The position numbers and the translations under genes are program-made. From Erythrobacter sp. WG (lineage in GTDB: Bacteria; Pseudomonadota; Alphaproteobacteria; Sphingomonadales; Sphingomonadaceae), in contig NZ_JAPFGY010000020.1 in assembly GCF_026586795.1 (NCBI RefSeq), forward strand, positions 1-64,000: a DNA stretch of 64,000 nt, read 5' to 3'. Every line of letters begins with the position of its first letter. The stretch's first letter is position 1. Positions 12,742-51,798 of this stretch are shown piece after piece. The notes under the pieces were generated by a model. It saw nothing but the letters and a program-made list of their open reading frames with translations. It was not told the DNA's origin and did no database searches.

Positions 12742-12792
12742 GGGGTTTCGGGTAGCCCCCCGCTGCCGATGCGGCAAGCATGACCGCCGCTC

Positions 12793-12840
12793 GCCCCTCC
12801 ACCATCCTGCCGATGGTCCCCCTCCCCCGAAGGGGAGGAC
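12793..12840. repeat. Half copy of type A palindromic repeat
   Basis: GCCCCTCCACCATCCTGCCG runs into GATGGTCCCCCTCCCC and ends in AAGGGGAGGA, matching the right half of the elements at 17093, 43561, 48022 and 50790. The left half is missing. Bases 12841-12912 that follow are a string of small hairpins (GGGCC/GGCCC, GGCCG/CGGCC), probably a further decayed repeat. Confidence 0.6.
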
Positions 12841-17092: not shown

Positions 17093-17222
17093 TCCTCCCC
17101 TCCAGGGGAGGGGGACCATCCGCAGGATGGTGGAGGGGCACCCGCCACTGTTCGGATCATTCGAGGGTGCCCCTCCACCCCGCGCGTCCCGCGCGCGGTC
17201 CCCCTCCCCCGGTGGGGGAGGA
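17093..17222. repeat. Type A palindromic repeat between gap and pgk
   Basis: About 130 bp beginning TCCTCCCC and ending GGGGAGGA, with paired arms GGACCATCCGCAGGATGGTG and GCCCCTCCACC inside. It fills almost the whole gap-pgk spacer and ends 13 bases before the pgk start, so its GGGGGAGGAACGG end may act as the pgk ribosome-binding region. Confidence 0.75.
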
Positions 17223-23723: not shown

Positions 23724-23738
23724 GCGCCAAGCTCCGAT

Positions 23739-23879
23739 CGTGTCGAGCGAAGTCGAGACACACGGCACCAGCAAGCGCCCAACCGCGTTCGTGCCGAGCC
23801 CCTACCCCGTTCGTGTCGAGCGTAGTCGAGACACAATAGCGCCGTGACACCGCCTCTCGACTGCGCTCGAGGCGAACGG
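23739..23879. repeat. Type B palindromic repeats (one partial, one full) between efp and suhB
   Basis: A partial unit with GTGTCGAGCGAAGTCGAGAC lies at 23741-23762. The full unit is 23807-23879: CCGTTCGTGTCGAGCG...CGCTCGAGGCGAACGG with inverted ends and an inner CGAG/CTCG stem. It ends 15 bases before the suhB start. The same element is at 46499-46564. Confidence 0.75.
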
Positions 23880-42354: not shown

Positions 42355-43134
42355 ATGAGTCGTTCGCCCATGCCTTCCTCGTCCTTCAGACCCTCGCCCG
42401 CGCGCGTCCTGGCTCGCTCCCTGCCCGAGGCGCGTTGGCGGCCGGGCCTTGCCGCGCAGCCCTTCCACTCCGAGATTTTCGCCCCCGCCACCGAGGCGAG
42501 CGGGGCGGGGCTGGCGCTGGCACTGGCGCGTGACGCCTTGACGTCATCGGCAGAAAGCGGAGCGGTGGAGGATACCCGCCAGATCCTCTGGGTGCAGGAC
42601 AGGCAGGCGATCAAGCGCGGCGGCCGGCCCTGTCTTGCCGGGCTCCCGCGCGAGTGGCGTCACCGGGTGATCCACGTCGCCGCCGCCACGCCCGAGGACG
42701 CGCTCTTTGCGCTGGAAGAGGGCGTGCGCTGTCGTGACCTCGCCTGCGTGATCGGCGAGATCGCGGGCAACCCCAAAGCGCTGTCCTTCACCGCCTCGCG
42801 CCGCCTCAGTCTCGCGGCCGAGCGGCACGGGGTCAGGCTGTGGCTGGTGCGATTGGATGCCGAGCCCGACCTCTCCTCGGCGCGAATGCGTTGGCGAGCC
42901 CGCGCCGCGCCGTCGCCGCCGCCGCGCTGGAACGCGGCCGCTCCCGGCAACGCCACCTGGCATGGCGAACTGTTTCGTGCCCGTGCCCACGCGCCGGGCG
43001 AATGGACGCTGAGCGATGACCACACACACCTTGCCATCGCCCGCGATACCGACGGCGATTTTGCCGCGCCGGATTCTGTCCGTCTGGCTCGCGCGACTGT
43101 CGGTCGATCGCTGGCGGCTGTCGCACGCGCCTGA
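42355..43134 (+). CDS. imuA: ImuA-type mutagenesis protein
   Basis: 259 residues. ImuA is a RecA-like accessory that works with ImuB and DnaE2 in damage-induced mutagenesis. Visible: the start of the domain with WRPGLAAQPFHSEIF, an ALLALARD-type helix, ILWVQDRQAIKRGGRPCLAGL, then a helical ALFALEEGVRCRDLACVIGEI and a C-terminal WHGELFRARAHAPGEWTL. A second ATG at 42370 is possible. Preceded by an SOS box and overlapping imuB by about 120 bases. Confidence 0.82.
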   Translation: MSRSPMPSSSFRPSPARVLARSLPEARWRPGLAAQPFHSEIFAPATEASGAGLALALARDALTSSAESGAVEDTRQILWVQDRQAIKRGGRPCLAGLPREWRHRVIHVAAATPEDALFALEEGVRCRDLACVIGEIAGNPKALSFTASRRLSLAAERHGVRLWLVRLDAEPDLSSARMRWRARAAPSPPPRWNAAAPGNATWHGELFRARAHAPGEWTLSDDHTHLAIARDTDGDFAAPDSVRLARATVGRSLAAVARA

Positions 43135-44776
43135 AGATCGCCCCGCTGCCGAGGCAGCGCCTACCGCGCTGATCCTCGAGACGGCGCATGGCCCGCGCAT
43201 AACCGCCGCCAACGACGCCGGACTTGCCGCGGGTGCGCGGGCAGGGATGCTGCTCGCCGATGCGCGCGCGCTGTGCCCCGAACTCGCCGCCGTGCCGGGC
43301 GATCCGGCGGGCGATCTCGCGGCGATCGAGAAGCTCGCCGTGTGGGCGCAGCGCTGGGGGCCGTGGAGCGCGCTCGATCCGCCCGACGGCGTGCTGGTCG
43401 ACGTCACCGGCGCCGCGCACCTCTTCGGCGGCGAGGAGACGCTCCTCGCCGATGTCGTGCGCGCCTTCGCCGCCCGCGGCCTCACCGTGCGCGCCGCCCT
43501 CGCGCCCACCGCCGGAGCGGCTTGGGCGCTGGCGCATTACGGTCGGGGCGCGGCGATTATTCCTCCCCTTCAAGGGAGGGGGACCACCGAAGGTGGTGGA
43601 GGGGCGGGCGACCGCGATCCGAAAGCTGGGGCATCGGGGCAACGCCGCACGCCCCTCCACCATGCTGCGCATGGTCCCCCTCCCCCGACGGGGGAGGATG
43701 ATATGCTCCGCCTCCTTGCTGATCTGCCGGTGGCCGCCTTGCGCCTCGACGACGACGTGCTGACCGTGCTGCGCCGCCTCGGGATCAAGCGCCTCGGCGA
43801 ACTCGCGGGGGTGACCGGGGCGGGGGAGGACGACCTTGCCCGGGAGGCCGCCGCGCGCGATGCGCTGCGCCGCCGCTTCCGCAATCGCTCCTCGCCCGCT
43901 GCCAATCCGCTGCTGCGCCTCGACCAGCTGCTGGGCAAGGTGCCCGAACCGCTGCTGCCGGTCGTCGCCCGCCCCATGCCGATGGTCCAGCGCCGGCTCG
44001 CCGAGCCGCTGCGCCATCGCGCGCCGCTGGATCACGTGGTCGAGGACCTCGCCGGCGACATGGGGCGTGCGCTCGAGGCGCGGGGCGAGGGGGCGCGGCG
44101 GCTCGAACTGGCGCTGTGGCGCGTGGATGGCGAGGTGCTGATGCGCCGCATCGAGCTTGCTGCCGCGACCCGTGAGGCTGCTCACATCACCCGCCTCTTC
44201 GCCAAGCGGCTCGACGATATCGATGCGGGCTTCGGGATCGAGACCGTCCAGCTGCGCGCCAGCTGGAGCGAGCCGCTGGCCCTCACCCAGGCCGATCTCG
44301 ACGCGGCGGCCGAGGAGCACGGCACCGCGCTTGCTGCCTGCATCGACCGGCTGACCGTGCGCCTCGGCCCACGCGCGGTGACCCGCCCCGTCGCCCGCGC
44401 CAGCCATCTGCCCGAGCGCGCGCAGGCCTGGCAGCCGCCGCTCGATCCCGTGCCGCCCCAACAAGGCGCGCTCGCCTTCCACACCCGCCCGCTGAAGCTG
44501 CTCGACCGGCCCGAACCGATTGCGGTGCTCTATGCCTCGCCGGACGGCTTCCCCCAGCGCTTCCGCTGGCGGGGAACGGTGCGCGAGGTGGTGCGGGTCG
44601 AGGGGCCGGAGCGGATCGCGCCCGAATGGTGGCGCGAACGCTCGACCACGCGGCTGCGCGACTATTACCGCATCGAGGACCAAGCGGGCGCGCGCTACTG
44701 GATCTATCGCCGTGGCATCGCCGGCGACGGGCGGGGCGGGGTGCCCGACTGGTTCCTGCAGGGCCTGTTCGCCTGA
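43016..44776 (+). CDS. imuB: ImuB, Y-family polymerase-like mutasome protein with an in-frame repeat
   Basis: 586 residues. ImuB looks like a Y-family polymerase but lacks the acidic catalytic residues; here too the first motif reads ILSVWLARLSVDRW with no DxD. It bridges ImuA, beta clamp and DnaE2. The palm-like GVLVDVTGAAHLFGGEETLL and little-finger parts (LELALWRVDGEVLMRRIELA) are present. Residues about 182-227 (PPLQGRGTTEG..., then LHHAAHGPPPPTGED) are not family sequence: they are translated from a 138-bp palindromic element. Removing them restores a continuous family sequence. A close alternative start is not seen. Confidence 0.85.
   Translation: MTTHTLPSPAIPTAILPRRILSVWLARLSVDRWRLSHAPEDRPAAEAAPTALILETAHGPRITAANDAGLAAGARAGMLLADARALCPELAAVPGDPAGDLAAIEKLAVWAQRWGPWSALDPPDGVLVDVTGAAHLFGGEETLLADVVRAFAARGLTVRAALAPTAGAAWALAHYGRGAAIIPPLQGRGTTEGGGGAGDRDPKAGASGQRRTPLHHAAHGPPPPTGEDDMLRLLADLPVAALRLDDDVLTVLRRLGIKRLGELAGVTGAGEDDLAREAAARDALRRRFRNRSSPAANPLLRLDQLLGKVPEPLLPVVARPMPMVQRRLAEPLRHRAPLDHVVEDLAGDMGRALEARGEGARRLELALWRVDGEVLMRRIELAAATREAAHITRLFAKRLDDIDAGFGIETVQLRASWSEPLALTQADLDAAAEEHGTALAACIDRLTVRLGPRAVTRPVARASHLPERAQAWQPPLDPVPPQQGALAFHTRPLKLLDRPEPIAVLYASPDGFPQRFRWRGTVREVVRVEGPERIAPEWWRERSTTRLRDYYRIEDQAGARYWIYRRGIAGDGRGGVPDWFLQGLFA
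43561..43698. repeat. Type A palindromic repeat in frame inside imuB
   Basis: 138 bp (46 codons) from TCCTCCCC to GGGGAGGA. Left arm GGGACCACCGAAGGTGGTGG and right arm CCACCATGCTGCGCATGGT follow the same plan as the intergenic copies. No stop codon occurs in the host frame. Confidence 0.82.
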
Positions 44777-44824
44777 GGGTCTTGCTCAGCATTCATTTAC
44801 CCAGTTTGTGCAATAACTCGCAAT

Positions 44825-45157
44825 ATGAACCTCGATTCCATCCCGCGCTCCTCCGAAAGGCGGCCGCTGAGCATGACGGTGAAGAGTCGTGTCAGCTCGC
44901 GGGTGGTCTATGTGGATCTCGTCGACATCTCGGAAGGCGGCTGCAAGCTGCGCGGAAAGCTCGGCTTTGCCGAAATGGGCGATCGGGTGGCCATGAAGGT
45001 GGGCGGGATCAATGCCCCGCTCGGGATCATCGCGTGGGTGGACGGAAATTACGCCGGCGTGGCCTTCGAAGGCGCGATGCATCCGGCGGTGCTCGACTTC
45101 CTGTGCGAGAACCGCGGGGCCGGACCCGACAGCCCGCAGCTGCGCCGCATCATCTGA
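44825..45157 (+). CDS. PilZ-domain protein
   Basis: 110 residues, one PilZ domain. PilZ proteins bind cyclic di-GMP. The pattern SSERRPLSMTVKSR corresponds to the RxxxR motif in a weakened form (ERRPLS), and DISEGGCKLRGKL is the D/NxSxxG strand. It lies 48 bases after imuB in the same direction and just before the second SOS promoter. It could be co-transcribed with imuAB. Confidence 0.78.
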   Translation: MNLDSIPRSSERRPLSMTVKSRVSSRVVYVDLVDISEGGCKLRGKLGFAEMGDRVAMKVGGINAPLGIIAWVDGNYAGVAFEGAMHPAVLDFLCENRGAGPDSPQLRRII

Positions 45158-45208
45158 TCGCACCGGCGGTGCGGCTTGCACGCTTTGCATTTGGCAGGCA
45201 GAGCGTGA

Positions 45209-45223
45209 GAACATATATGGAAC
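45209..45223. promoter_or_regulatory. SOS (LexA) box before the radical SAM gene
   Basis: GAAC-ATATATG-GAAC has the same spacing and nearly the same spacer as the imuA box. A -35-like TTGGCA lies upstream at 45191 with the -10 TATATG inside the box, 17 bases away. The radical SAM start is 23 bases further. Both promoters also share CTTTGCATTTG about 20 bases before the box. Confidence 0.82.
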
Positions 45224-45245
45224 GCGAAAGGCGTTTCCGGTTCCC

Positions 45246-46484
45246 ATGGTCCAGCACACTCTCCGCCAGAAGCTTGCGATCCTCGCCGACGCGGCGAAGT
45301 ACGACGCCTCCTGCGCCTCCTCGGGAACGGCGAAGAAGAACTCGCTCGGCGGGAAGGGCATCGGCTCGACCGAGGGCATGGGCATCTGCCACGCCTATGC
45401 GCCGGATGGGCGCTGCATTTCGCTCCTGAAGATCCTGCTAACCAACCACTGCATCTTCGATTGCCACTATTGCATCAACCGCAAGAGCTCGAACGTCGCC
45501 CGCGCGCGCTTCACGCCGCAGGAAGTGGTCGATCTCACGCTGAACTTCTATCGTCGCAATTACATCGAGGGGCTGTTCCTCTCCTCGGGCATCGTCAAGA
45601 GCGCGAACCACACGATGGAGCAGCTCGTCGAGGTCGCCCGGATCCTGCGCGAGGAGCACGACTTTCGCGGCTACATTCACTTGAAGACCATTCCCGAGGC
45701 CGATGCGGAGATCATCCATCAGGCCGGGCTCTATGCCGACCGCGTGTCGATCAATGTCGAGCTGCCGACCGATACCGGGCTGACGCGGCTCGCCCCGGAC
45801 AAGAATGCAGGGCAGATCGAAGGCGCTATGGGGCGTACGAAGGAACGCATCCTCACCGCCAAGGACGAGAGGAAGAAGTTCCGCCACGCCCCCCGCTTCG
45901 CGCCTGCGGGCCAGTCGACCCAGATGATCGTCGGCGCCGACGATGCCAATGACGCGGCGATCATCGGCAAGGCGAGCCGGCTTTATGACAGCTTCGGCCT
46001 GAGGCGCGTCTACTACAGCGCCTTCTCGCCGATCCCCGATGCGTCCGCCGTGCTGCCCTTGAAGAGCCCGCCGCTGCTGCGCGAGCACCGGCTGTATCAG
46101 TCGGACTGGCTGATGCGCTTCTACGGCTTCGCGCCCGGGGAGGTGGCGGACGCGGCCGAGGCGGACGGCAACCTGCCGCTCGATATTGACCCCAAGCTGG
46201 CCTGGGCGCTGAAGTTCCGCGCAAGCTTCCCGGTCGACGTCAACCGCGCGCCCCGCGAGCTGCTGCTGCGCGTGCCGGGGCTCGGCACCAAGGCAGTCGC
46301 GCGCATCCTTGCCGTACGGCGGCACCGCAGCTTGCGATTGGAGGATGTCGCACGGCTGACGGCTTCGGTCGCCAAGGTGCGGCCCTTCATCTGCACCGTC
46401 GACTGGCGCCCGACGCTACTGACCGACCGCGCCGATCTGAAGGGGCTTGTCGCCCCGAAGGTCGAGCAGCTGGAGCTGTTCTGA
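45246..46484 (+). CDS. Putative DNA modification/repair radical SAM protein
   Basis: 412 residues. CxxxCxxC for the 4Fe-4S cluster is CIFDCHYC at residues 69-76, then the radical SAM barrel. A C-terminal helix-hairpin-helix (ELLLRVPGLGTKAVARILAVRRHR) suggests DNA contact. It is the family commonly paired with a UdgX-type gene and annotated as a putative DNA repair radical SAM protein; its reaction is not established. ATG at 45246 is downstream of the SOS box. No ribosome site is obvious. Confidence 0.85.
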   Translation: MVQHTLRQKLAILADAAKYDASCASSGTAKKNSLGGKGIGSTEGMGICHAYAPDGRCISLLKILLTNHCIFDCHYCINRKSSNVARARFTPQEVVDLTLNFYRRNYIEGLFLSSGIVKSANHTMEQLVEVARILREEHDFRGYIHLKTIPEADAEIIHQAGLYADRVSINVELPTDTGLTRLAPDKNAGQIEGAMGRTKERILTAKDERKKFRHAPRFAPAGQSTQMIVGADDANDAAIIGKASRLYDSFGLRRVYYSAFSPIPDASAVLPLKSPPLLREHRLYQSDWLMRFYGFAPGEVADAAEADGNLPLDIDPKLAWALKFRASFPVDVNRAPRELLLRVPGLGTKAVARILAVRRHRSLRLEDVARLTASVAKVRPFICTVDWRPTLLTDRADLKGLVAPKVEQLELF

Positions 46485-46498
46485 TGATTGCCTCCATC

Positions 46499-46564
46499 CG
46501 TTCGTGTCGAGCGAAGTCGAGACACGCTGGGCCACAGCCTCTCGACTTCGCTCGAGGCGAACGG
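46499..46564. repeat. Type B palindromic repeat between radical SAM and UdgX genes
   Basis: 66 bp from CCGTTCGTGTCGAGCG to CGCTCGAGGCGAACGG, an almost perfect palindrome with GAAGTCGAGAC/CTCGACTTC inside. It ends 18 bases before the udgX ATG; the GAACGGAGGGCGAGG overlap could serve as its ribosome site. Same family as 23807-23879. Confidence 0.8.
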
Positions 46565-46581
46565 AGGGCGAGGTGACCGCG

Positions 46582-48021
46582 ATGCAGAACGTCGCCATCG
46601 CCTCGCACTACGCCGTCCATCTGCCGGCGCCCGACGACTTCGCGGCGTGGCGCGAGCGGGCGCGGGGGCTTGTCCAGTGCGATGTGCCGCCCGATCGCGT
46701 CTCGTGGATCGAGCCTGGCGGCACGGGCGACCTCTTCGCCGTCGAGGGCCCCGCGCGCCGCGAGAAGCGGCTGCCGGTCCCCCCCGCCGACGCTCCGTCG
46801 GTGCGCGCCAGCAAGCGCTTCCTCGAGGTCGCCAAGAGCGCCGCGCTCCACTCGGACCCGGCGCGCTTCGGCCTCCTCTACCGCGTGCTGTGGCGGCTCC
46901 AGCGGTTCCCGCGCCTGATGGAGGACAAGGCCGACCCCGACGTTCGCCGCCTGGAGGAGCTCGCCAAGGCGGTGCGCCGCGACGCGCACAAGATGCACGC
47001 CTTCGTGCGCTTCCGCGAGGTCGAGGAGGAAGACGGCACCCCGCACTTCGTCGCCTGGTTCGAGCCCGATCACCACATCATCCGCGCCGAGGCGGCCTTC
47101 TTCATGCGCCGCTTCGCCAATATGCGCTGGTCGATCCTCACCCCGCGCGGCAGCATCCACTGGGACGGTGAGACCATGCGCGAGGGTCCTCCCGCCCGGC
47201 GTTCCGACGCGCCGTCGGGTGACCCGGTCGAAGACCTGTGGCGCTCCTACTATGCGGCTATATTCAATCCCGCGCGATTGAAGGTGGCCGCGATGCTGTC
47301 GGAGATGCCGAAGAAGTATTGGAAGAACCTGCCCGAGGCCGAGCTCATCCCGCAGCTGATCGCCGGGGCGCAGGCGCGGGAGGCGCAGATGGTGTCATCG
47401 GGGAGCCTCGACAGGGGCGAGCGGCCCGCCACGCTGGAGGGCATCGACACGGCGATCCACGCCTGCCGGATGTGCCCGATCGGCGAACTCGACAACCGCG
47501 CGGTGATGGGCGAGGGCGCTCTCGGCGCGCCGCTGATGATCGTCGGCGAGCAGCCGGGCGACCATGAGGATCGGGCCGGGCGGCCCTTCGTCGGGCCGGC
47601 GGGGCAGCTCCTCGGCGAATATCTCGAGCGCGCCGGGATCGACCGCAGCCAGGCCTACGTCACCAATGCGGTCAAGCACTTCAAGTTCGTGTGGAAGGGC
47701 AAGCGCCGGCTGCACCAGTCGCCGGGCGCCAAGGAGATCGACACCTGCCGCTGGTGGCTCGAGGCCGAGCGCAATCTGGTCCAGCCCCGCCTCGTGCTGG
47801 CGCTCGGCGCCTCGGCCGCACGCGGCCTGCTCGGCAAGACGGTGAGCATCACCAAGGCGCGGGGGCAGCCCATGCGCCTCGAGGACGGCACCGAGCTGTG
47901 GATCACCGCCCACCCCTCCTACCTGCTGCGCCTCGAAGGCGAGGCGCGCGAGGAACAGGCGCGCCTCTTCGCCGCCGACCTCGCGGCGGTGAGGGAGCGA
48001 CTCCGGGAGCTGGCGCGATGA
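46582..48021 (+). CDS. udgX: UdgX-family uracil-DNA binding/glycosylase, fused to an N-terminal SAM-linked domain
   Basis: 479 residues. The N-terminal ~270 residues match the protein family that partners the radical SAM gene (often a separate or fused domain); the C-terminal ~200 residues are UdgX. Seen there: CRMCPIG, GEQPGDHEDRAGRPF, and the R-loop KRRLHQSP whose His forms a covalent link to the abasic sugar in the mycobacterial enzyme. ATG at 46582; a GTG 9 bases upstream is possible. It lies immediately before a type A repeat and dnaE2. Confidence 0.88.
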   Translation: MQNVAIASHYAVHLPAPDDFAAWRERARGLVQCDVPPDRVSWIEPGGTGDLFAVEGPARREKRLPVPPADAPSVRASKRFLEVAKSAALHSDPARFGLLYRVLWRLQRFPRLMEDKADPDVRRLEELAKAVRRDAHKMHAFVRFREVEEEDGTPHFVAWFEPDHHIIRAEAAFFMRRFANMRWSILTPRGSIHWDGETMREGPPARRSDAPSGDPVEDLWRSYYAAIFNPARLKVAAMLSEMPKKYWKNLPEAELIPQLIAGAQAREAQMVSSGSLDRGERPATLEGIDTAIHACRMCPIGELDNRAVMGEGALGAPLMIVGEQPGDHEDRAGRPFVGPAGQLLGEYLERAGIDRSQAYVTNAVKHFKFVWKGKRRLHQSPGAKEIDTCRWWLEAERNLVQPRLVLALGASAARGLLGKTVSITKARGQPMRLEDGTELWITAHPSYLLRLEGEAREEQARLFAADLAAVRERLRELAR

Positions 48022-48127
48022 TCCTCCCCCACCGGGGGAGGGGGACCATGCGAAGCATGGTGGAGGGGCGGACGCGGCTCGTCTCTCCACCACCCTTCGG
48101 GTGGTTCCACTCCCCTGAAGGAGAGGA
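48022..48127. repeat. Type A palindromic repeat between udgX and dnaE2
   Basis: 106 bp, TCCTCCCC to GGAGAGGA, with GGACCATGCGAAGCATGGTG and CCACCACCCTTCGGGTGGT inside. It abuts the udgX stop on the left, and its end (AAGGAGAGG) is 5-10 bases from the dnaE2 GTG, so it supplies the dnaE2 ribosome-binding site. Confidence 0.8.
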
Positions 48128-48132
48128 TTGAG

Positions 48133-51100
48133 GTGCCCGACGCCCCGCTCACCCCCGACAAGCGCACGCTCCGGATCGACCCGGAGGACGTCACCCCGCC
48201 CGAGCGCGCGCCCTTCGTCGAGCTGGGCCTCGCGAGCTGTTTCAGTTTCCTGCGCGGCGCCTCGGACGCGGTCGACCTGGTGCTGGCGGCGCACGCGTTG
48301 GGCTACGACGCGATTGCGATCGCCGACGTCAACTCGATGGCGGGCGTGGTGCGCGTCCACACCGAGGCGAAGACGCTGAAGATGCGCCCGGTGATCGGCT
48401 GCCGGATCGAGACGGTCGAGGGCCTCGCGTTTCTCGCCTACCCCGAGGACCGCGCCGCCTATGGCCGCCTGTGCCGCTTGATCAGCGCCGGGCGGATGCA
48501 GACCCTCTCGGGCGAATGGCAGGACAAGGGGGCGTGCGAGATCGATCTTGCGATGCTCGCCGCGCATTGCGAGGGAGTCCAACTGATCCTGCTACCGCCC
48601 GATGACCTGAATGGCGTGTTCACCATCGCGGTGCCGAGCAACGTCATCCCCCTCCCGCTTGCGGGAGGGGTTCGGGGTGGGAGCGAGCGCAGCGAGCCTG
48701 AAGACAGGCCCACCCCCGACCCCTCCCGCAAGCGAGAGGGGAGGCATATCCCCAGCCCCTTCGGCCCCACCGACTTAACCGTCCATTTCGCAGATCTTCT
48801 CCCCCATCTGACCCGCCAACTGCCGACCCTGCGCCACCTCGCCGCCGCCTATCTCTATCGCGGCGACGACATCGCGCGGATCGAGCGATTGGACGCTCTC
48901 GCTCGGGCGAACGGCCTTGGCCTGCTCGCCACCAACGACGTCCATTACCATGCGCCCGAGCGCCGCGCGCTCCAGGACGTGATGACCGCGATCCGGCACA
49001 AGACCACCGTCGCCAAGGCCGGCCACCTGCTCCACCCCAATGCCGAGCGGCACTTGAAGAGCCCTCAGCAGATGCAGCGCCTCTTCGCCCGCTGGCCCCA
49101 CGCGATCCGCGCCGCCCGCGAGGTGGCGGATCGCTGCCGCTTCAGCTTGGACGAGCTGCGCTACGAATACCCGGAGGAGATCTACCCCAACGGCCAATCC
49201 CCGCAGGCCTACCTTGAGAGCGAGGTCTGGGCCGGGGCCGCACGGCGCTACCCCCACGGCCTCCCCGACACCGTGCGCCAGACGCTCGAGCGCGAGCTCG
49301 CCCTGATCGCCAAGCTCGACCTTGCCCGCTACTTCCTCACCATCAAGGACATCGTCGATTTCGCGCGGGGCTGCGATCCGCCGATCCTGTGCCAGGGGCG
49401 GGGGAGCGCCGCCAACTCGGCGGTCTGCTACGTCCTCGGCATCACCTCGGTCGACCCTGCCAAGCACCAGCTGCTGTTCGATCGCTTCATTTCGGAAGAA
49501 CGCAAGGAGCCGCCCGACATCGACGTCGATTTCGAGCACGAGCGGCGCGAGGAGGTGATCCAGTACATCTACCGCAAATATGGCCGCCACCGCGCGGGGC
49601 TGTGCGCGACGGTGATCCACTACCGCCCGCGCATGGCGATCCGCGAGGTAGGGAAGGCCATGGGCCTCTCCGAGGACGTCACCGCCGCGCTCGCGCGGAC
49701 CGTGTGGGGCGGGTGGGGCAACGAGCTCACCGAGAAGCACGCCGCCGAAACCGGCATGGACGTGACCGACCCGCACTTGCGCCGCGTCCTCAAGCTTACC
49801 GAGCAGATGATCGGAATGCCCCGCCATCTCGGCCAGCACGTCGGCGGCTTCATCCTCACCGAGAGCCCGCTGATCGAGACGGTGCCGGTCGGCAACGGGG
49901 CGATGCCCGAGCGAAGCTTCATCGAGTGGGACAAGGACGACATCGACGCGCTCGGCATCCTCAAGGTCGACGTGCTGGCGCTGGGGATGCTGACCTGCAT
50001 CCGCAAGTGCCTCGACCTCCTGGGCGCGCACCACGACCGGCCGCTGACCCTCGCCACCGTGCCGCGCGAGGACCCGGAGACCTACGCGATGCTCAGGAAG
50101 GGCGACTCGCTCGGGGTCTTCCAGGTCGAAAGCCGGGCGCAGATGAATATGCTGCCGCGCCTGCGCCCGCGCGAGTTCTACGACCTCGTTATCCAGGTCG
50201 CGATCGTGCGGCCGGGTCCGATCCAGGGCGACATGGTGCACCCCTACCTGAAGCGCCGCCGCGGTGCCGAGCCGGTGCAGATCCCCGCTCCCGCGCCCGA
50301 GCACGGTCCCCCCGACGAGCTCACCAGCATCCTCGGGCGCACCTTGGGCGTGCCGATCTTCCAGGAACAGGCGATGAAGATCGCGCTGGATGCCGCGAAG
50401 TTCTCCAGCCTCGAGGCCAACCGGCTGAGGAAGGCAATGGCGACCTTCCGCAGCCGCGGGATGGTCGACGAGCTTCAGGACATGATGGTCGAACGCATGG
50501 TCGCGCGCGGCTACGACCGCGACTTCGCGCAGCGCTGCTTCAACCAGATCAGGGGCTTTGGCGAATACGGCTTTCCCGAAAGCCACGCGGCGAGCTTCGC
50601 GCAGCTCGTCTACGTCTCGAGCTGGCTCAAGTGCCACTATCCGGCGGCCTTTGCTGCCGCGCTCCTCAATTCGCAGCCGATGGGCTTCTATGCGCCCGCG
50701 CAGATCGTGCGCGATGCGCGGGAGCACGGGGTGGCGGTGCTGCCGGTGGACGTGAACGCGAGTCTCTGGGACTGTACCTTGGAGCGCAATCCTCCCCCAA
50801 TGGGGGAGGAGGACCATGCGCAGCATGGTGGAGGGGCGGGCGGCGGCTCGCCCCTCCACCACCCTTCGGGTGGTCCCCCTCCCCGTACCGGGGAGGATCG
50901 CTCACACGCCCTGCGCCTCGGCTTGCGCCAAGTCGACGGTCTGCCCGAACACGTCGCCGCCGCGCTGGTGGCCGAGCGCGAGGAGCGCGGGCCCTACCGC
51001 GACGTCGCGGACCTGCGCGAGCGGGCGCGCCTCTCGCCGGCGCATATCGAGCGGCTCGCCAGCGCCGATGCCTTCACCTCATTGGGCCTCTCGCGGCGGC

Positions 51101-51798
51101 AGGCGCTGTGGAATGCGCGCAGCCTCGTGTCCATGCCCGATCTCCCGCTGTTCCGCGCCGCCGGGGTGCGCGAGGAGGGGAGCGAGCGTGCTGCCATTCG
51201 GCTTCCCGCCATGCCGCTCTCCGAGGAGGTGGTGGCCGATTACCAGACCACCCGCCTCAGCCTGAAGGCGCACCCGATGGCCTTCCTGCGCGCCGATCTC
51301 GGGGCACGCGGCTTCGTGCGCGCCTGCGACCTCAGGGCGCGCAAGTTCCGCTCGATGGTGCAGGTCGCGGGCGTGGTGCTGATCCGCCAGCGACCGGGGA
51401 GCGCCAAGGGGGTGTGCTTCATCACTCTCGAGGACGAGACCGGGGTCATCAACCTCGTCGTCTGGCCCGACCTGAAGGAGAAGCAGCGCCGCGTGGTGAT
51501 GGGTGCACGGCTGATGGAGGTGCGGGGGCGCGTCGAATATGACGACGAGGTAATCCATGTGATCGCGCAGCACATGACCGACGCCACACACCGGCTGCAT
51601 ATGCTCTCCGACGACCTGCTTTCCGCGCCGCTCGCCCGCGCCGACCATGTCAATGCGCCGCTCTCGGGCCGCAAGCCCCCGCAGGACCGCGAGGCGCTGC
51701 GCCCGCGCGACCTGATCGACGAACTGATCCCACCGCACAACGTCACCGGCCACCCGCGCGATCACCGTATCCTGCCGAAATCGCGCGATTTCCACTGA
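48133..51798 (+). CDS. dnaE2: Error-prone DNA polymerase DnaE2 with two in-frame repeat insertions
   Basis: 1221 residues, longer than the usual 1050-1100. The error-prone C-family polymerase acting with ImuA and ImuB. PHP domain at the start (FVELGLASCFSFLRGAS), catalytic Asp residues 462, 464 and 466 in PPDIDVDFEHERR, and an OB-fold near the end (AGVVLIRQRPGSAKG). Residues 172-203 and about 886-921 are read from palindromic repeats at 48647-48742 and 50790-50897 and are not family sequence. GTG start with ribosome site in the preceding repeat. The stop overlaps the extensin-like start. Confidence 0.92.
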   Translation: MPDAPLTPDKRTLRIDPEDVTPPERAPFVELGLASCFSFLRGASDAVDLVLAAHALGYDAIAIADVNSMAGVVRVHTEAKTLKMRPVIGCRIETVEGLAFLAYPEDRAAYGRLCRLISAGRMQTLSGEWQDKGACEIDLAMLAAHCEGVQLILLPPDDLNGVFTIAVPSNVIPLPLAGGVRGGSERSEPEDRPTPDPSRKREGRHIPSPFGPTDLTVHFADLLPHLTRQLPTLRHLAAAYLYRGDDIARIERLDALARANGLGLLATNDVHYHAPERRALQDVMTAIRHKTTVAKAGHLLHPNAERHLKSPQQMQRLFARWPHAIRAAREVADRCRFSLDELRYEYPEEIYPNGQSPQAYLESEVWAGAARRYPHGLPDTVRQTLERELALIAKLDLARYFLTIKDIVDFARGCDPPILCQGRGSAANSAVCYVLGITSVDPAKHQLLFDRFISEERKEPPDIDVDFEHERREEVIQYIYRKYGRHRAGLCATVIHYRPRMAIREVGKAMGLSEDVTAALARTVWGGWGNELTEKHAAETGMDVTDPHLRRVLKLTEQMIGMPRHLGQHVGGFILTESPLIETVPVGNGAMPERSFIEWDKDDIDALGILKVDVLALGMLTCIRKCLDLLGAHHDRPLTLATVPREDPETYAMLRKGDSLGVFQVESRAQMNMLPRLRPREFYDLVIQVAIVRPGPIQGDMVHPYLKRRRGAEPVQIPAPAPEHGPPDELTSILGRTLGVPIFQEQAMKIALDAAKFSSLEANRLRKAMATFRSRGMVDELQDMMVERMVARGYDRDFAQRCFNQIRGFGEYGFPESHAASFAQLVYVSSWLKCHYPAAFAAALLNSQPMGFYAPAQIVRDAREHGVAVLPVDVNASLWDCTLERNPPPMGEEDHAQHGGGAGGGSPLHHPSGGPPPRTGEDRSHALRLGLRQVDGLPEHVAAALVAEREERGPYRDVADLRERARLSPAHIERLASADAFTSLGLSRRQALWNARSLVSMPDLPLFRAAGVREEGSERAAIRLPAMPLSEEVVADYQTTRLSLKAHPMAFLRADLGARGFVRACDLRARKFRSMVQVAGVVLIRQRPGSAKGVCFITLEDETGVINLVVWPDLKEKQRRVVMGARLMEVRGRVEYDDEVIHVIAQHMTDATHRLHMLSDDLLSAPLARADHVNAPLSGRKPPQDREALRPRDLIDELIPPHNVTGHPRDHRILPKSRDFH
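48647..48742. repeat. Type D palindromic repeat in frame inside dnaE2
   Basis: 96 bp (32 codons) from TCCCCCTCCCGCTTGCGGGA to CCCTCCCGCAAGCGAGAGGG. The inner part contains GTTCGGGGTGGG and CCCACCCCCGAC. It differs from type A in its core but shares the CCTCCC/GGGAGG ends. It sits between the PHP and the polymerase parts of dnaE2. Confidence 0.75.
50790..50897. repeat. Type A palindromic repeat in frame inside dnaE2
   Basis: 108 bp (36 codons), TCCTCCCC to GGGGAGGA. GGACCATGCGCAGCATGGTG at the left and CCACCACCCTTCGGGTGGT at the right match the 48022 copy almost exactly. It lies in the C-terminal region before the helix-hairpin-helix-like DGLPEHVAAALVAERE. Confidence 0.82.

Follow-up and report, generated by a model that had tools for sequence, protein, structure and literature searches.

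The closest described counterparts of the elements reported here are the Rickettsia palindromic elements (RPEs) and the repetitive extragenic palindromes (REPs), whose GTAG and CGTC superfamilies were the subject of a study reportedly by Di Nocera. RPEs are summarised in PMC10969869. REPs lying in frame within genes were published in 2013 (PMC3733652), in DnaE2, UvrA, RecB, TruB and tRNA synthetases, and the sphingomonads E. litoralis and S. alaskensis are among the species concerned (TruB, tRNA synthetases), whereas a first-pass annotation of our DNA knew of no such description in sphingomonads. That paper proposes neutral loop insertion or, alternatively, mutator effects, describes REPs in genes of one category as sitting at different sites (Xanthomonas recB excepted) and gives, in its Table 1, no transposase association for CGTC repeats; an Erythrobacter genome is listed in PMC12306157. 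Here, we analyse a 64,000-nt stretch of Erythrobacter sp. WG (contig NZ_JAPFGY010000020.1, hereafter the window, from a 3.31-Mb genome labelled G000), in which three palindromes lie in frame within the mutasome genes imuB and dnaE2. Our reading, which we hold with high confidence, is that these are small non-autonomous mobile palindromes belonging to families spread through the genome, and that those seen within genes are in-frame survivors in tolerant loops. The features on which the argument turns are as follows.

43016 to 44776, plus strand: imuB, Y-family-like polymerase subunit of the mutasome (open reading frame; Pfam IMS, IMS_C, DUF6504).
43561 to 43698, unstranded: family A palindromic element of 138 bp, in frame in imuB, encoding 46 residues.
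48133 to 51798, plus strand: dnaE2, error-prone DNA polymerase III alpha, ImuC (NCBIfam NF004225, 1403.6 bits).
48647 to 48742, unstranded: family B palindromic element of 96 bp, lying in frame in loop 1 of dnaE2, a hairpin that follows directly on the PHP match.
50790 to 50897, unstranded: family A palindromic element of 108 bp, lying in frame in loop 2 of dnaE2, a hairpin within the HHH_6 match.

The positions, lengths and open frames of the three in-gene elements are those already given by the first-pass annotation. Each folds far more stably than expected (with single-strand DNA parameters, z-scores against shuffles of -7.2 for imuB, -8.5 for dnaE2 loop 1 and -8.2 for dnaE2 loop 2), 0/200 shuffles being as stable in each case. 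They had been taken for one set of elements, and while their palindromic nature is borne out, they belong to two families: A, found in imuB and dnaE2 loop 2, with ends TCCTCCCC and GGGGAGGA and inner unit GGGGGACCATGCGCAGCATGGTGGAGGGG, and B, found in dnaE2 loop 1, of the CTCCCGCTTGCGGGAGGGG type. A third family, C, of the GTGTCGAGCGAAGTCGAGACAC type, occurs elsewhere in the window. The elements consist of two inverted units with a short spacer between them. The family A pattern matches six times in the window and never in 100 shuffles, and the genome-wide search that had been proposed as a check returned 20 matches for A, 26 for B and 73 for C, reversed-pattern controls giving none. It is equally true that no element brings a stop into the host frame, but this is weak evidence: 5/6, 5/6 and 6/6 frames of the three elements are open, and when a window of the same length and one of its frames are picked at random, that frame is open in 57-66% of draws. 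Stop avoidance was therefore rejected as a sign of selection, most frames being open by chance.

What establishes the three segments as insertions is orthologue comparison, not their open frames. The genus set comprised 61 genomes searched, with 44 to 56 used per gene, partial genes and contig-edge copies being left out of loop counts; dnaE2 was matched in 61/61 (but in G033, G034 and G058 at the level of the paralogue dnaE1 only) and imuB in 55/61 (in G023 through repeat-encoded residues only). The gap occupied by the imuB element measures 43 residues in the window against one in the median relative and is expanded in only 1/44 genus genomes, the window's own. DnaE2 has three strongly length-variable loops. 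Loop 2 is 41 residues long in the window against a lower quartile of 6, and loop 1 is 47 residues long against a lower quartile of 16 in relatives (or, in a wider frame, 64 against 7 in Rhodobacterales), the two being expanded in 10/50 and 17/44 genomes, respectively. Two controls lack palindromes: the C-terminal loop of dnaE2, expanded in 9/50 genomes (0/9 palindromic), and DnaE1 (in G000, C35:13159-16692), where a 26-residue expansion at residue 323 is present in 6/56 genus genomes (0/6 palindromic). As judged from these alignments, the extra segments are insertions, just as had been claimed at the outset.

The same loops are filled again and again across the genus, by palindromes of different types, which were told apart by signature patterns (doubtful calls were dropped, namely G007 in truB, G039 in uvrC and family A in G059). 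In dnaE2 loop 1, type B, D, E2, F or G is found in 21/48 genus genomes (G052 assigned by eye), sister species carrying different types, and in loop 2, type A, F, I or J is found in 5/50. Changes of state at loop 1 number at least 16 on a DnaE1 tree and at least 14 on a dnaE2 tree built without the loops (shuffled mean 19.9). A loop of truB (residues 149-200) holds A, D, E or H in 10/54 genus genomes, and a loop of uvrC (residues 482-528) holds B, C or F in 6/55. On this comparative evidence, palindromes have landed recurrently in both dnaE2 loops; counted conservatively, this takes at least one insertion for each type in each loop, five in loop 1 and four in loop 2.

Structural models are consistent with this picture. 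AlphaFold gave a mean predicted local distance difference test score (pLDDT) of 83.4 for ImuB and 77.1 for DnaE2 residues 1-1200, and most of each insert falls below 50 while its flanks are ordered: (i) residues 193-196 and 200-219 of ImuB, before helix 226-234, (ii) residues 173-208 of DnaE2 (loop 1), between strands 162-167 and 213-218, and (iii) residues 890-917 (loop 2), between strands 882-885 and 925-928. Two inserts sit at hairpin tips. Values under 50 occur elsewhere in DnaE2 as well, chiefly at 1000-1045 and at the C-terminus. If low pLDDT is read as disorder, the ImuB and DnaE2 inserts are predicted to lie in exposed or disordered loops. No decay is visible in either gene, although a young insertion would leave little time for it; the ratio of nonsynonymous to synonymous differences (pN/pS) is 0.18-0.24 for imuB against the six nearest relatives, other genus pairs having a median of 0.21.

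The window's genome as a whole holds at least 15 in-frame insertions in 13 proteins, out of about 107 distinct elements (neighbouring matches merged by hand), with hosts identified by NCBIfam or Pfam.

Family A in G000: imuB, dnaE2, glyS and truB.
Family B in G000: dnaE2 and uvrC.
Family C in G000: glyS, a NirA/sulfite-reductase-like gene, valS, a biotin carboxylase gene, a carboxyltransferase gene, ileS, carA, ligD and ligA.

Insertions within some 50 to 100 codons of gene ends escape detection, and long spanning frames with low third-position GC, together with the candidates L214, L414, L418, L420 and the plus-strand frame of L424, were taken by eye for shadow frames or gene starts and left out of the count. 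In carA (L417, near 3263), a second palindrome type is apparently nested in the family C insertion, with the peptide PEPAEG. One preferred reading phase was also considered (by eye, the right-hand phase of A in 4/4 gene copies and one frame of C in 7/9), which is suggestive but rests on too few cases to be claimed.

Several points weigh against our reading of these palindromes as mobile and recurrent. Only 7/17 loop 1 and 5/10 loop 2 expansions reach a fold z <= -3, and no target site duplication was established, flanks having been read by eye and the nearest relatives being too diverged for an exact empty site. Eight palindrome types occur across the two dnaE2 loops, yet D, E, E2 and G look CGTC-like, so eight types are not eight proven unrelated families. 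Within types B, G and E2 at loop 1, inspection by eye shows flanking residues common to different species, and part of the loop 1 pattern may reflect inheritance or exchange of dnaE2 alleles instead of fresh insertion. For glyS and the eight other family C hosts (9/13), the case rests on family models and not on orthologue alignment. Lastly, pN/pS for dnaE2 (0.13-0.15) is slightly above that of other pairs (median 0.12, quartiles 0.115-0.133).

How might such palindromes spread? For each of families A, B and C, G000 holds a copy in which a small endonuclease gene lies between the inverted arms.

C3:43176 to 43610 (L003:1538 to 1963): DUF559 gene inside inverted family A copies.
C17:40523 to 41100 (L165:1025 to 1438): DUF559 gene inside inverted family B copies.
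C33:34731 to 35132 (L417:1479 to 1829): GIY-YIG gene inside inverted family C copies.

Contig C3 carries five more family A matches, two of which flank one DUF559 gene, and the L003 nuclease frame has a second, 22-residue match (flank score 8.5) that was not counted as a gene. Among the matches listed genus-wide, there are inverted pairs of constant spacing (in A about 404-406 or 379 bp, in D 375 bp), and those read enclose a DUF559 gene in 9/9 family A pairs (L441 having one weak arm) and a GIY-YIG gene in 5/5 family D pairs; Pfam PF04480 and PF01541 were confirmed on five representative nucleases. Among stretches other than such pairs, L450 and L452-L454 are without a nuclease and L451 has a GIY-YIG gene. 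The inverted flanks of 19 nuclease frames score between 19.5 and 48, while 3000 random places have a 99th percentile of 14.5 and a maximum of 38.5; nearly all of the nuclease loci (L363 is an exception) had been picked by their repeats.

An independent test used 22 hand-chosen places in other genera, from matched plasmid records (35 DUF559 and 33 GIY-YIG, some shared). Inverted palindromic flanks scoring at least 18 were found at 16/22 of these nuclease genes (DUF559 9/13, GIY-YIG 7/9), the positives including one cyanobacterial and two Deinococcus records (L458, L470, L473), and at 0/33 control coding sequences of one 45-kb plasmid stretch (maximum 12.5), where 0.2 percent of random places reach that score. 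A phylogenetic tree of DUF559 proteins tracks palindrome type, with 7 label changes against a shuffled mean of 11.1 and minimum of 8 (200 shuffles), and a single clade (SH-like approximate likelihood ratio test support 98) holds 11/12 family-A-labelled proteins together with L455, which has similar arms. The intergenic site between sufB and sufC is occupied by a DUF559 gene in a Sphingomonas plasmid and by a GIY-YIG gene in Azospirillum (L461, L465), inverted palindromes being present in each case.

The involvement of the nuclease has evidence on its other side too. The cut of 18 was set after seeing the scores, with L464 exactly at it, and six of the 22 plasmid nucleases fall below (L459 8.5, L469 12.5, L471 9, L472 12.5, L475 7.5, L476 16.5), although L469, L472 and L476 exceed the 99th percentile of their own shuffles. 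L164, the family B case, matched the A signature too and lies outside the DUF559 family A clade, while the GIY-YIG tree agrees with palindrome type no better than chance (4 changes, shuffled mean 5.6). Above all, flank association is not proof that a nuclease moves the element.

These data bear on the strongest competitor, in which the nuclease genes are homing-type passengers that invaded pre-existing palindromes, themselves spread by replication slippage or an unseen transposase. The GIY-YIG and restriction-like folds do include homing as well as restriction enzymes, which fits passengers, as does the fact that palindromes are far more numerous than nuclease copies; fixed spacing, common arms in several genomes and the match between DUF559 clade and palindrome type instead fit a unit moving whole. 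We consider passengers a serious possibility, albeit somewhat on the doubtful side. A preferred or selected mutasome target, with the ImuB and DnaE2 insertions kept because they alter mutagenesis, is improbable. Such biased insertion or selection had been put forward in the first-pass annotation as one of two alternatives, and it is true that three elements sit in two partner proteins and that loop 1 of dnaE2 has the highest occupancy among the loops of the five genes compared. However, 12 of the at least 15 in-frame insertions in this genome sit in other proteins, at least 11 in number, on which ground a mutasome bias was rejected; moreover, imuB is filled in 1/44 genus genomes, palindromes are more frequent in truB, whose product modifies tRNA, than in dnaE2 loop 2 (10/54 versus 5/50) and the inserts occupy very-low-confidence loops of the models, two at hairpin tips.

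That the extra residues are native protein sequence is more improbable still, since the imuB segment is confined to the window's genome (1/96 of a wider set including named genomes) and the loop residues are not the same from one species to the next and correspond to repeats known from other places (A and B within the window's genome, D in other genus genomes). For imuB and dnaE2 loop 2, orthologues do not carry the same residues at the same place, as they should if these were native, and this reading is already contradicted there; at loop 1 they partly do, family-B-like residues recurring in some Novosphingobium and other Erythrobacter loci, so the loop 1 insertion may be older or shared. Least credible of all is mobilisation of REP/REPIN-type elements by a REP-associated tyrosine transposase (RAYT), which the inverted dimer architecture, like that of REPINs, would suit, but which was rejected because a search with PF01797 of this genome and 14 control genomes found no Y1 (RAYT-type) transposase in the former and matches in 5/14 of the latter.

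Since no Y1 transposase was found in the window's genome and most of the sampled plasmid nuclease genes have inverted palindromic flanks, a nuclease-carrying parent element is, on sequence evidence, the best candidate mobiliser of the palindromes. Elements would copy into many places in the genome, most insertions in genes would be lost and in-frame ones at exposed loops would survive, which would make recurrence a matter of tolerance and not of mutasome targeting. The least certain step is the last, in which nuclease-bearing copies would be the parents and the nuclease would promote copying by cutting the element hairpin or the target, followed by repair; we regard this step as evenly poised between true and false. 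The broadest form of the proposal, that widespread mobile palindromes are moved by small embedded endonucleases (DUF559 for CCTCCCC-type, GIY-YIG for CGTC-type) and not by transposases, with gene-less copies as their miniature inverted-repeat transposable elements (MITEs), and repeatedly diversify exposed loops of repair and translation proteins, DnaE2, TruB and UvrC among them, is offered tentatively, as conceivable but just short of an even prospect.

Further features of the window are listed here.

12785 to 12835, unstranded: family A half element (pattern match).
17093 to 17222, unstranded: family A element outside imuB and dnaE2 (pattern match).
23733 to 23843, unstranded: family C repeat pair (pattern match).
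42355 to 43134, plus strand: imuA-like gene (weak NCBIfam ImuA match of 24.3 bits, the cut-off being 150; none in Pfam).
46495 to 46570, unstranded: palindrome of family C (GTGTCGAGCGAAGTCGAGACAC type), with the radical-SAM gene on one side and the UdgX-fusion gene on the other (fold z -8.1; genome pattern match).
48022 to 48127, unstranded: family A element immediately before the start of dnaE2, absent from the first-pass list (pattern, fold).

Between imuB and dnaE2 (45246-48021) lie a radical-SAM repair-type gene (TIGR03916) and a DUF4130/UdgX-type domain fusion gene. Family A is clustered, 5 of some 19 elements falling in a 39-kb part of the window (12785-50897); in simulations, a cluster of this kind arose anywhere with a probability of 0.0009. 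The elements at 48022-48127 and 50790-50897 are the mutual closest pair among 14 complete family A elements, a likeness between the copies before and inside dnaE2 that suggests local copying. Rfam at gathering thresholds returned only tRNAs and 6S RNA in the window.

Compared with RPEs, the present elements are likewise short palindromes lying in frame in protein genes, with several families per genome and with TruB and DNA repair genes among their hosts (PMC3733652, PMC10969869), and they too are missing from orthologues (shown for imuB, dnaE2, uvrC and truB; by family models for the other hosts). The parallel with Rickettsia drawn in the first-pass annotation therefore holds as far as in-frame, tolerated, mobile-type elements of comparable effect are concerned, but not for mutasome specificity. 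The differences, with RPEs compared by description and not by sequence, are that our palindromes are GC-rich and their host is a free-living sphingomonad, that the same loop is reused by different palindrome types across species and that there are nuclease-bearing copies. CGTC REPs are resembled by family D, which starts with CGTCATG, ends with TCCA and forms inverted pairs (it has no match in the window's genome), and by the intragenic copies in DnaE2, TruB and tRNA synthetases (PMC3733652). In contrast, families A, B and C are without the CGTC head, and the combination of CGTC head, 8-9 bp stem and CCA tail was not seen by eye in A or B; here, CGTC-type palindromes flank GIY-YIG genes, whereas PMC3733652 lists no transposase for CGTC repeats. 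With REPIN/RAYT systems, our elements share non-autonomous inverted pairs of REP-like units and a rarer gene-bearing unit, but the gene between the arms encodes a nuclease of the DUF559 or GIY-YIG kind and not a Y1 transposase. Like MITEs, they are short, have inverted ends and come in gene-bearing and gene-less forms, with arms shared with a DUF559- or GIY-YIG-bearing copy that is the putative parent; they differ in that neither a target duplication (flanks read by eye) nor a transposase came to light.

In conclusion, in-frame palindromes in repair genes are of a known kind. Their recurrent landing in loops of DnaE2, TruB and UvrC speaks for structural tolerance rather than a mutator role, and the loop survey amounts to a naturally occurring inventory of places at which a DNA polymerase accepts insertions. 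Among the matches listed, no paper links DUF559 or GIY-YIG to palindromic repeats by its title or abstract, subscription literature being outside the scope of that search. What goes beyond print, as far as seen, is that palindromes of different types reuse the same loops and, most importantly, that endonuclease genes are present inside the same arms, which provides a directly testable candidate for the spreading of CGTC-type and similar palindromes.

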